A stretch of 39,956 nucleotides of DNA, taken from positions 1-39,956 of the forward strand of contig JAIXQA010000070.1 of NCBI GenBank assembly GCA_027485915.1, written 5' to 3'. This document shows positions 37,464 to 39,956 of the stretch, piece after piece. A program made the position numbers and the translations under genes. The notes beneath the pieces were generated by a model. It did no database searches and was not told the origin of the DNA. It saw nothing but the letters and a program-made list of their open reading frames with translations. Source of the DNA: Alphaproteobacteria bacterium. GTDB lineage: Bacteria; Pseudomonadota; Alphaproteobacteria; Caulobacterales; Aquidulcibacteraceae. Positions within the stretch are counted from its first letter, which is position 1, and the number at the start of each line of letters is the position of its first letter.

Positions 37464-37679
37464 CGCGTGGGTTTGAGATGGCCGCAACATCTGGGTCGAC
37501 AAGTGCACAGCTTCGCTCTGTCACAAGCCATCCGTTTTCGCAGAAGCAATTTCATGAGCGGTTGGGGGGCCGGAAGGGTCACCAAAACGTTTCTAAGTCA
37601 AATGAATTTGAGACCTTCCAATTTGGTCTGGCTGCGCCGACAGAAGGACATAAGCGGACGCTCTTTTGAGCTGTAAAGC

Positions 37680-38054
37680 CTAGGTTCTGCTGGGTGGAAA
37701 CCCAGAGATTGGATCAATAAGGCCCGCTTCTATGAGCGGACGCATTCTTTCCGTATCCTTTTCATTCAGGGGGTTTATTCCGTCAAAAGTGTCCAAGAAA
37801 TCAGCCAATGTAACGTCTTGTGCGGAAAACTGTCCCAAGTCTCTGAGTTTTCGGCTTAATGTGTAAGTCATAAGCGCGTTTAAACAGTCAAGGGTTTCCC
37901 ATTCCTCATCACTGAATTCCATTGAGCTGAGCGGCTCCAAAGTTTCGCAGCTTGCATCCCAGACCTCGAGGCTCCCGTGTGACGTTTGGCAAACCATCGC
38001 ATGCGCAGGCCATTGGTTTCTTAAAAGCTCAAAAAGTTCGATAATCGGACGCAC
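37680..38054 (-). CDS. Putative immunity protein of an orphan Rhs-CT module (acidic, 124 aa)
   Basis: 124 aa from GTG at 38054, with AGGGAAG immediately upstream. It lies 12 bp after the stop of Rhs-core fragment B. It is strongly acidic (MEFSDEEWETLDCLN, DVTLADFLDTFDG), soluble, and has no signal or membrane helix. I recognise no family. Its place directly after an Rhs fragment, its size and its acidity fit a cytoplasmic immunity protein, often acidic against basic nuclease toxins. The cognate toxin is reduced to a 29-residue tail, so it may now be an orphan antitoxin. This function is inferred. Confidence 0.5.
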   Translation of the reverse strand: MRPIIELFELLRNQWPAHAMVCQTSHGSLEVWDASCETLEPLSSMEFSDEEWETLDCLNALMTYTLSRKLRDLGQFSAQDVTLADFLDTFDGINPLNEKDTERMRPLIEAGLIDPISGFPPSRT

Positions 38055-38066
38055 TTCTTCCCTACC

Positions 38067-38390
38067 TTATTGTTCCATTGTTGCGCACGGTTGTCGGTCT
38101 ATCGCCACGATTAAATGATCGCTCATTATCCCATCTTTTCCAAGCTGAGCCTCCAAGGGCACGACGGTGCCGGCCGCATTGGTGGTGAGGATGGGCGCGC
38201 CGTGATGGTGGGTGTGGAGCCAGTTGAGCGTGCCAGTTTGGCCGACAGCGGTGGCCAGCGGCATATAGCCGCCCAAGCCATCATCCCCACCAGTTGGCCC
38301 TGTCGCCCCAACCTTGGGCATCAGCCAGATATATTCAGCCTTGATGTCGGAAGTACCCGTAGCGCCATGTTCGTCTACAATAACAAATGC
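38067..38390 (-). pseudogene. Orphan Rhs core fragment B with a short residual C-terminus
   Basis: The frame is open for 107 codons after an in-frame TAG (38391-38393). The first ATG is only at 38321. It reads Rhs core: DIKAEYIWLMPKVG, GGDDGLGGYMPLATAVGQTG, LNWLHTHHHGAPILTTN and GTVVP, then leaves the core at LEAQLGKDGIMSDHLIVA and stops after 29 residues. In Rhs systems such fragments mark displaced C-terminal toxin modules; here the toxin part is mostly lost. It begins 19 bp after the previous immunity-like gene. A 102-bp block in it is about 93% identical to core fragment A. Confidence 0.75.
38157..38258 (-). repeat. Rhs core repeat, copy B (102 bp)
   Basis: This 102-bp (34-codon) block encodes ATAVGQTG to GTVVP and matches 39415-39516 with 7 differences, by my count. 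Homology ends sharply at both sides, as expected for a recombination segment between displaced C-terminal modules. Confidence 0.85.
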
Positions 38391-38409
38391 CTAGAATATG
38401 TTGAATTCG

Positions 38410-38703
38410 TTACCGACAAATGGCGATCGCCCCGCTGTTGGTGATGCCAATGAACAAGGTATCGGTCTTCACCGTGGCCAATTCGACGGGAGGCTTGCTC
38501 CACTTTTCATCTGCGCAGTTGATTGTCATGAAGTTCTCGGAAATGGACTTCAGGATGATTTCTTGTTGTGAAATCCGTCCGTTGTTCAGACCGACGGCCA
38601 AATACGATTCTCGGACATGATGATAGATATAAACATTGCTTAGGATCGACCCCACCAGCAAAATCATAAATGAAATAATCGCACTTTTGGGCCACTTGGA
38701 CAT
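38410..38703 (-). CDS. Membrane-anchored candidate immunity protein for the NlpC/CHAP-like toxin
   Basis: 97 aa from the ATG at 38703, with GAGG 6 nt upstream. An ATG at 38715 overlaps the toxin stop as ATGA and is equally possible. One N-terminal helix (about residues 7-27, SAIISFMILLVGSILS) is followed by a soluble part of about 70 residues with two Cys, probably in the periplasm. No family recognised. Placement next to the toxin stop and periplasmic exposure suit neutralisation of a cell-wall hydrolase. Base use looks more AT-rich than in nearby core genes. Confidence 0.6.
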   Translation of the reverse strand: MSKWPKSAIISFMILLVGSILSNVYIYHHVRESYLAVGLNNGRISQQEIILKSISENFMTINCADEKWSKPPVELATVKTDTLFIGITNSGAIAICR

Positions 38704-38711
38704 AATCATCC

Positions 38712-39533
38712 TCATTGACATAAGCATCGACGAATAACGGGCGTCTGGCCGGGTCGGAAGCCCCAATCATTCTCTTTTACGCCATCAGGCGTTGCAGAGA
38801 TAGATTTCCCGTTGCCACTCACAATGCCAACATGACCACGAAAAGCTATAAGATCTCCTACCTTCGGCGGACCAGTCACAACAGGCCAGTCAGGAACAGA
38901 ATAACTTGGCATTGAGAGATTTGCCGCCCCGGGTGGATAGCGTCCGAAAATCCGCGCCAACAGGCCTCCGCCAATATTCGGTAGGCTATAGCCGGATTTT
39001 TCATATTGTGTATCGACAAATAGATTGCATTTATAGGTTCCTTTGCCGAAGCCGCTTCGCACATCTGAGCGATCTGCGCTTTTACTCCAATCCCGTTTGT
39101 CACTTCTGGCTTGGGCAATCAAACTTCTCGACGAACCACAGGAGCACAGCCCATCTGGATCCATAAACCCAAGCGGATTGCCACCCGCATAAGCATAAGG
39201 ATTATCATCCCCCGCCAGCCCAATGGGGTCGGCTTGGATGTAGCGCCCGGTGTTAAGGATTATCATCCCCCGCCAGCCCAATCGGGTCGGCTTGGATGTA
39301 GCGCCCGGTGTTGACGTCATAATCGCGGTAGCGGTTGTAATAGTGCTGTGCGCCCGCCAATTGCTGGGAATTGGCAAATTGGCCGGGGAAGCCCAGCACT
39401 GCGTGGGCGGGATAGGGCACGACGGTACCGGTTGCATTGGTGGTGAGGATGGGCGCGCCGTGATGGTGGGTGTGGAGCCAGTTGAGCGCTCCTGTTTGGC
39501 CGACAGCCGTGGCCAGTGGGCCACCATGGTCAT
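38712..39533 (-). CDS. Rhs C-terminal toxin, NlpC/P60- or CHAP-like cysteine hydrolase (out of frame with its core)
   Basis: The open frame is 273 aa from ATG 39533, but residues 1-93 are the Rhs core read in the wrong frame. Real coding starts near 39254 with NTGRYIQADPIGLAGDDNP, then YAYAGGNPLGFMDPDG, the standard end of an Rhs core. The toxin follows: YKCNLFVDTQ with the likely nucleophile Cys169, PKVGDLIAFRGHVGIVSGNG with His234, and KENDWGFRPG. This is the NlpC/P60 or CHAP pattern, so I infer a peptidoglycan amidase or endopeptidase. The stop overlaps the ATG at 38715 of the immunity candidate. The 58-bp duplication breaks the reading frame between core and toxin. Confidence 0.65.
   Translation of the reverse strand: MTMVAHWPRLSAKQERSTGSTPTITARPSSPPMQPVPSCPIPPTQCWASPANLPIPSNWRAHSTITTATAIMTSTPGATSKPTRLGWRGMIILNTGRYIQADPIGLAGDDNPYAYAGGNPLGFMDPDGLCSCGSSRSLIAQARSDKRDWSKSADRSDVRSGFGKGTYKCNLFVDTQYEKSGYSLPNIGGGLLARIFGRYPPGAANLSMPSYSVPDWPVVTGPPKVGDLIAFRGHVGIVSGNGKSISATPDGVKENDWGFRPGQTPVIRRCLCQ
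39197..39312 (-). repeat. 58-bp tandem duplication within the Rhs core
   Basis: Two adjacent copies (39197-39254 and 39255-39312) differ at one base (ATGGGG versus ATCGGG on the plus strand). Each encodes NTGRYIQADPIGLAGDDNP. Since 58 is not a multiple of 3, the core frame runs into a TAA at the junction (39253-39255) and the toxin lies in another frame. Confidence 0.95.
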
Positions 39534-39537
39534 AGGC
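39253..39537 (-). pseudogene. Rhs core fragment A, ended by the duplication
   Basis: 94 open codons between an in-frame TAG (39538-39540) and the TAA at the duplication junction. It has no in-frame ATG. It reads PLATAVGQTGALNWLHTHHH, then GAPILTTNATGTVVPY, LGFPGQFANSQQLAG, HYYNRYRDYDVNTGRYIQ. These are the last steps of an Rhs/YD-repeat shell before its DPxG cleavage site. It starts 23 bp after the stop of the partial gene at the window edge, so it lacks the rest of the shell: a displaced module, not a full rhs gene. Confidence 0.8.
39415..39516 (-). repeat. Rhs core repeat, copy A (102 bp)
   Basis: Counterpart of 38157-38258 on the same strand, with 7 differences in 102 bp. It lies about 1.26 kb away and could recombine with it, deleting the toxin and immunity genes between them. 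Confidence 0.85.
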
Positions 39538-39560
39538 CTAAAAAGCCGATAGCCCTTGAG

Positions 39561-39956
39561 TTAGACTTCATCATCACGACCGTGCTCGAGCCTATCAATA
39601 GCTCGCGTGATCGATTGGGAGGCTTTTCCCCGCTTGATGTCTCCTAGTGCAATTGCCTTGCCCTCATAGAATTTGAATGGTTTAGGTAGTTCAACAGAAT
39701 AGAGCCTGCCGGTTACAAAATTGATGTTCGCCCATTGCTTTTTGCCGTCAACGAACATTTCTACTCGATATAGGTCCTCAGCATACGCCGCATCCTCAAG
39801 CAGTGTTTCAGGGTCAAGAATATAGTGAAATATAGGATTGATCCGGCCTTTGTGCCACCAATGCTGTATAAAGGGTTGACGAAGCTGTGCGCTTATCTTC
39901 TCGGCGTGCGCATGGTCAACTCTGGCTAAGAAATGCTTAATTATGATGTCTGTCGG
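39561..39956 (-). CDS. Partial gene at the window edge, possible immunity protein of a preceding Rhs module
   Basis: The frame is open from the window end to the TAG at 39561, giving at least 131 residues; the start lies outside the window. It reads HFLARVDHAHAEKISAQLRQ, HYILDPETLLEDAAYA, MFVDGKKQWANINFVTG and ends RAIDRLEHGRDDEV. Soluble, mixed charge, no family recognised. It stops 23 bp before Rhs core fragment A, the same spacing as the immunity-like gene before fragment B (19 bp), so an immunity role is inferred from position only. Confidence 0.5.
   Translation of the reverse strand, partial: PTDIIIKHFLARVDHAHAEKISAQLRQPFIQHWWHKGRINPIFHYILDPETLLEDAAYAEDLYRVEMFVDGKKQWANINFVTGRLYSVELPKPFKFYEGKAIALGDIKRGKASQSITRAIDRLEHGRDDEV

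Follow-up and report, generated by a model that had tools for sequence, protein, structure and literature searches.

A displaced Rhs tip/immunity array with retained immunity genes and no shell gene found in a genome of the Aquidulcibacteraceae

Displaced tips of Rhs toxins are usually taken to serve a full rhs gene close by as a reserve, and the locus described here raises the question of what such an array is kept for if no full gene with the same core is found. The window, i.e. the whole stretch of DNA that was analysed, is the complete contig JAIXQA010000070.1 (C23; 39,956 bp) of a bacterium of the Aquidulcibacteraceae (GCA_027485915.1), whose 3.31-Mb draft genome (G000) comprises 82 contigs and is 99.96% complete. 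The right end of the contig carries fragments of a Rhs core together with tips and small immunity genes. The locus was compared with the same-genus genomes of Hyphomonadaceae bacterium UKL13-1 (G005, one complete contig), Candidatus Phycosocius bacilliformis (G001) and an Aquidulcibacter metagenome-assembled genome (G006). Searches at the order level covered 398 genomes including G000, core searches at the family level 60 genomes. According to our analysis, the locus is probably a shell-less and partly decayed Rhs tip array whose immunity genes have been kept as an orphan defence. Since arrays without a rhs gene were encountered in several species, it can be asked whether selection keeps immunity genes after the weapon has been lost.

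Re-reading of the sequence agreed with the original prediction of serial displaced Rhs toxin/immunity modules in gene order, strand and coordinates (Table 1). Short core homology without an intact shell in the window had also been predicted, and both fragments indeed represent Rhs core, fragment A according to the model TIGR03696, fragment B according to its match to a congener core. In module A, TIGR03696 exceeded its cut-off twice, at 39147-39254 (41.7 bits) and at 39259-39408 (36.8 bits). At the nucleotide level, core A is 88.7-94.0% identical to seven core copies of congeners over 266 bp, core B 88.5-92.4% identical to congener cores. The proposed spacings of 23 bp and 19 bp between an immunity gene and the following core hold approximately, as core homology begins about 41 bp after the Imm1 stop (at 39519) and about 28 bp after the next immunity stop (at ~38381). 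On the other hand, two supposed units have to be separated. Core A and the toxin, regarded as one unit, occupy separate reading frames. At the core/toxin joint, two copies of a 58-bp sequence (39312-39255 and 39254-39197, one mismatch) follow each other. Frame A runs into a stop here, and the toxin continues in another frame. By a criterion of our own, a tip in frame with its core fragment, tip A shares its frame with the 36 final core codons and not with fragment A. Similarly, core B and the residual tail had been joined, but three-frame translation places the tail in another frame than core B. Each module has its own tip and immunity gene: an NlpC/P60-like toxin (weak match) and a membrane immunity gene in module A, whose stop and start codons overlap in ATGA (38715-38712), the 30-codon tail (toxin by eye) and an acidic immunity gene in module B. 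The three immunity frames of the window are uninterrupted over their readable length, that of Imm1 (39561-39956) running open into the contig end.

Table 1. Features of the Rhs tip/immunity array in the window, from right to left
Feature	Position	Strand	Remark
Imm1, last 131 codons	39561..39956	-	5' part removed by contig end; 58% protein identity to L056:10851-11243 (G006)
Imm1/core A spacer	39520..39560	-	junction also present in G006
Rhs core fragment A	39253..39519	-	TIGR03696 36.8 bits; frame stops at TAA (39255-39253) at the duplication
Tandem duplication of 58 bp with a single mismatch	39197..39312	-	length not a multiple of three; parts core A from toxin frame
Last 36 core codons and NlpC/P60-like toxin domain (180 codons)	38712..39254	-	open; not in frame of core A
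Membrane immunity gene, 101 codons	38410..38715	-	single hydrophobic helix at the N-terminus (by eye); start overlaps toxin stop as ATGA
Rhs core fragment B	38156..38381	-	89% protein identity to G005 core (38172-38381)
Toxin C-terminus remnant, 30 codons and stop	38062..38154	-	three-frame translation; toxin nature by eye
Acidic immunity gene of module B, 124 codons, GTG start	37680..38054	-	directly 3' of the remnant tail
Dispersed repeat at 3' edge of array	37470..37640		22 BLAST rows in the G000 sequence examined

A full rhs gene had been predicted to the right of the window, which neither the searches nor the relatives support. While the sequence beyond the contig end is unreadable, a full-length Rhs gene with the same core was detected neither in the assembly, which was searched with DNA, the core model, the RHS repeat model and the core protein, nor in the three array-bearing congeners. 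The sole full-length Rhs protein found in G000 (contig C79, L011:3283-8118; 1,473 amino acids) has its own tip and shares 26.5% protein identity with a congener core over 215 columns, without any nucleotide match at E 1e-3. It has a signal-peptide-like start (by eye), which presumably would fit WapA-type secretion; the gene 3' of it may be its immunity gene, and an integrase-like gene (L011:10157-11389, by eye) is located nearby. VipB/TssC of the type VI secretion system (T6SS) gave no match in G000, with a positive E. coli control; other T6SS genes were not searched. A search by shared k-mers for the contig adjoining C23, which covered 78 further contigs up to 20 kb from their start and the examined stretches of C79 and C56, found none; C82 and the far ends of contigs longer than 20 kb were unread.

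Comparison within the genus showed that G001, G005 and G006 have shell-less arrays of a similar kind, which differ in their neighbouring genes. Each of these genomes contains three core-model matches in frames of 203-397 amino acids and none longer. RHS repeats (PF05593) were not detected in G005 and G006, and G001 yielded one 145-amino-acid fragment. A positive control was provided by contig C21 of G012 from the same family, where a Rhs frame of 1,428 amino acids precedes eight core matches of the same orientation. Within the family, the core model was detected in 30 of the 60 genomes, 14 of which, among them all three one-contig core-bearing genomes (G005, G031, G052), do not possess a core-bearing frame of at least 600 amino acids. 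Loss of the shell with retention of tips may thus be common, which speaks against a special status of the window, although some of these 14 are truncated by contig ends, and frames might also be shorter because of a frameshift. Three further loci were noted in this context. The one-contig genome G031 of another genus contains eight core matches on both strands (G031:C1:54983-67211) in frames of 192-354 amino acids and none longer, and this region is possibly another shell-less island. In G106, two Rhs modules with immunity genes (L104:7289-10248) have no long Rhs frame by eye in the 7.3 kb upstream. The congener G008 has a 2,958-amino-acid frame with many RHS repeats (G008:C8:113774-118768) in a genome without a match to the Rhs core model.

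Core relatives (E <= 1e-6, N-terminal half as query) were detected in seven of the order genomes, all of them within the genus, and due to this confinement the core array can hardly be attributed to chance. In G003, G004 and G007, there is a single short match each, a scrap of about 31 codons (L094:9937-10029, L093:9501-9593 and L095:93-185) behind one common gene that resembles an acyl-CoA synthetase by eye. Weaker scraps exist in G000 itself, a decayed piece on C56 (L096:3031-3174) and another one on C49 (L153:3089-3217). The core copies are 88-99% identical to one another and 90-99% within one locus. Using this divergence as a clock for the loss of the shell was abandoned, since the G012 array, which is accompanied by a full rhs gene, is even more divergent (67-94%).

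As to the immunity genes, the original remark that the two small proteins (37680-38054 and 39561-39956) match no recognised family agrees with the searches, as no Pfam or NCBIfam match was obtained, the best chance hit being KRAB (E 0.18). It was also checked in the order genomes whether such genes are common outside Rhs loci, which was not found. Using the longer G006 homologue as query, the Imm1 family was detected in four genomes, in three of which (G000, G006, G106) it lies in Rhs loci; the fourth match (G247) is weak (28%) and located inside a 1,104-codon frame. The G006 gene is situated behind Rhs tip 1. G106 belongs to another family of the order, and its Imm1 relative shows 34% identity to the G006 copy and 31% to the window copy. 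This gene follows a module that is 41% identical to G006 module 1 (core and tip together), while the Rhs core is a different one. The alignments link Imm1 to one tip type at two loci and on two different cores. It is predicted that Imm1 neutralises a Rhs tip lying to the right, the type of which is HNH-like by eye only. No Pfam family was assigned to this tip type, the G106 tip giving RHS repeats and one chance match. A PDB match between the homologue of Imm1 in G006 and cholera toxin B (E 0.19) was taken as chance as well. The tip/Imm1 pair, conserved on two different Rhs cores, is directly testable.

The similarity between the window and G006 is unevenly distributed over Imm1 and the spacer. 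In bins of 45 columns, identity rises from 45-64% in the first five through 60-69% in the following two to 82-87% in the last three, which cover the end of Imm1 and the spacer. Judged by this pattern, the block formed by the Imm1 end and the spacer shares a more recent common ancestor with G006 than the remaining part of Imm1 does; the simplest cause would be recombination with a breakpoint in the immunity gene. The membrane immunity gene has a homologue in its own genome (C28:47734-48045, 75% protein identity), whereas no relative was found in the other 397 order genomes. Nor did these 397 genomes yield a relative of the acidic gene, so that its role is assigned by its position; a match of the acidic protein to a growth factor in the PDB (E 0.05) was regarded as chance. 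The proportions of synonymous and nonsynonymous differences (pS/pN) amount to 0.81/0.26 for Imm1 and its G006 counterpart (Fisher p 3e-20), to 0.69/0.19 for a C28 gene and immunity 2 of G006 (p 7e-21) and to 0.25/0.11 for the membrane immunity gene and its C28 copy (p 0.01). These values point to purifying selection on all three comparable immunity pairs.

The C28 genes occur without any core. At 46.6-49.2 kb of this contig (L004:8604-11173, minus strand), six small genes lie on one strand, in which the homologue of the membrane immunity gene is placed beside a homologue (67%) of G006 immunity 2. The remaining four code for a Sel1 protein, a DUF7336 protein and a pair of DUF4288 proteins, one of which scores under its cut-off. 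Two of the six genes are thus homologous to tip immunities. The run may represent a polyimmunity locus.

Tip A matched NLPC_P60 below the cut-off (E 3.6e-4; 20.9 bits against 23) and CHAP with E 5.4e-3, and it has a Cys and a His that by eye look suitable for NlpC/P60, so that an NlpC/P60-like class is weakly suggested. In the 60 family genomes, no match from another genome extended past residue 73 of its 180 residues. The 30-codon tail gave neither a Pfam nor a plasmid match, and its PDB matches had E values of 0.99 and 4.2. For eight congener tips, no Pfam match was obtained except two chance ones (E 0.08 and 0.09). The third supposed tip of G005 was discarded as a toxin, as by eye it looks like the terminal part of an enzyme of the VOC family, with a 38% match on contig C13 of G000. 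A viral origin of the tip was rejected because the six viral-contig stretches that fitted a pattern do not encode a relative of the tip query, a plasmid origin because none of 379 matching plasmid records covers more than 80% of the query. Among the 25 plasmid matches listed, the widest covers 68% of the query, and 18 cover at most 20%, at the core end.

The arrays of the genus are located beside different genes (names by eye): a desaturase in the window, one nitroreductase-like and one VOC-like gene in G005, redoxin-like genes in G001, and one epimerase-like gene and a P450 in G006. The desaturase is present in eight of nine genomes of the genus. The sequence following it differs among G001, G004 and G005; in G003 and G007, 0.4 kb and 1.2 kb are readable, respectively, and in G002 and G006 the contig stops in the desaturase or 0.2 kb behind it. 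To the right of the desaturase in G001 (L065:6083-9884), there are minus-strand pieces which by eye resemble a disrupted gene for a secreted polymorphic toxin, with a small ankyrin-like gene next to it. When 250-bp pieces of the array edges were compared with the genomes, the 5' edges matched 15 (C28), 23 (G005), 19 (G001) and 23 (G006) other places, the 3' edges 18 (G006), 12 (window), 0 (G005), 0 (G001) and 1 (C28). Hence, six of nine edges match at least 12 other places and three match none or one, and in three congener arrays the 5' edge, the side on which a shell is expected, is a repeat. Random intergenic control pieces matched at least three places in 17 of 200 gaps in G000 and in 6 of 34 gaps in congeners, two of the six being array edges. 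This test was post hoc, since the edges were examined after the repeats had been seen, and it includes C28, which is no rhs array and whose 5' edge was set at the first DUF4288 gene. It replaced a test with flank-derived queries (16 of 406 gaps near a cluster). The dispersed intergenic repeats of G000 are about 120-280 bp long and partly palindrome-like (e.g. L124, L150, L153, L173). With flank-derived queries, 44 repeat clusters were counted in 1.33 Mb of G000; they border arrays, and several contigs end at or near repeats. It is conceivable, though quite doubtful, that the tip/immunity arrays of the genus are units of their own that became detached from shells, moved between sites via the dispersed repeats at their 5' edges and were kept for their immunity genes.

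In the explanation that we consider probable, the array would be the surviving downstream part of a Rhs locus of the genus. New tips would have displaced old ones, producing the string of core fragment, tip and immunity modules that can be read in the window. The shell gene to which this core belonged would have been lost from the lineage later, as suggested by its absence in the searches of G000 and the congeners. At present, the duplication severs tip A, whose toxin frame is open, from most of its core, and tip B consists of 30 codons out of frame. Because neither a shell nor a partner gene of matching core was found, it is probable that the toxins are not produced as weapons for delivery. 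By contrast, the immunity genes most likely still serve as orphan immunity, because their frames are open and the comparable pairs are under purifying selection. They would act against tips of related strains, and the C28 run would do likewise without any tip. Several points weigh against this explanation. Imm1 is cut by the contig end, beyond which not a single base can be seen, and as the smallest of the 78 contigs examined measures 3,537 bp, small contigs may be absent from the assembly used. No inner stop occurs in the frames that contain the nine core matches of G001, G005 and G006, tip A keeps its 36 in-frame core codons, and given these open core frames, tips may still be reused by recombination. 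The purifying selection may date from a time when the immunity genes still had toxins, and the acidic gene offers no homologue among the order genomes for such a comparison. Finally, the divergence of the core copies does not date the loss of the shell, as it is exceeded in G012.

The same open codons of tip A, the direction of the array and the break of the contig within it would also suit an ordinary displaced array, in which a full rhs gene of the same core follows to the right but was not assembled because the core copies repeat, and in which the modules form a silent tip reserve for recombination. G012 demonstrates that this arrangement exists in the family. We nevertheless regard it as rather unlikely here, since searches of the nearly complete assembly revealed no long gene with the window core, G005, whose genome is complete, shows three core matches but no shell, and dispersed repeats instead of rhs genes form the 5' edges of all three congener arrays. 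That the immunity genes are drifting leftovers without any present function agrees with the remnant state of tip B and with the small core scraps elsewhere in the genus (G003, G004, G007 and C56 of G000), but it is very unlikely in view of the three open immunity frames and of pN values well below pS in the three comparable pairs, to which the acidic gene does not contribute. Hardly credible, lastly, is an intracellular function of the pairs as toxin-antitoxin modules, as reported for an orphan rhs tip of Salmonella Typhimurium. The ATGA overlap and the open frame from the core end through the toxin would permit it, and Salmonella orphan tips are reported to be transcribed from internal promoters (PMC7043789). 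Against it, an unexported peptidoglycan hydrolase, if the weak match gives the toxin class correctly, should be harmless in the cytoplasm, and module B has nearly no toxin left.

Preference for a shell-less array with retained immunity genes leads to the question of how the locus relates to known systems. In Enterobacteriaceae, strings of dissociated rhs tips with core fragments of variable length were explained by successive displacement (Jackson et al. 2009, PMC2935791), and the window resembles them in both respects. Those tips lie downstream of intact genes and the cores within a locus are described as always identical, whereas in the window and the three congeners no intact gene of the same core was found and the cores are 90-99% identical. 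The orphan tip of Salmonella Typhimurium LT2 is deployed after recombination with the main gene (Koskiniemi et al. 2014, PMC3967940); a later paper describes expression of a Salmonella orphan tip from internal promoters (PMC7043789). The LT2 module and those of the window share a core-homologous fragment and a linked immunity gene, but in LT2 the main rhs gene, which is 95% identical over 522 bp, is available as recombination partner, while none was found here. A narrow phrase search of the literature for orphan rhs lacking a full-length gene found nothing, which does not show that shell-less arrays are unreported.

Parallels also exist for the immunity genes. The immunity gene arrays of Vibrio cholerae (Kirchberger et al. 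2017, PMC5361080) and polyimmunity loci (Zhang et al. 2012, PMC3482391) are comparable in that old immunity genes persisted after replacement of their effectors, and in that immunity genes stand in tandem without tips, as those of C28 appear to do. In contrast to these loci, no T6SS sheath gene was found in G000, and on C23 the core fragments are still attached. A stand-alone orphan Rhs immunity gene that is homologous to the tip immunity of another strain was described for Serratia marcescens Db10 (PMC10539506). Protection by the Db10 gene was demonstrated experimentally, whereas for the window genes we infer protection. Compared with all these systems, the window is a displaced tip array of the known kind in an unusual state: no shell was found, tip A is cut off from its core and tip B is a mere tail, while the immunity genes have been kept.

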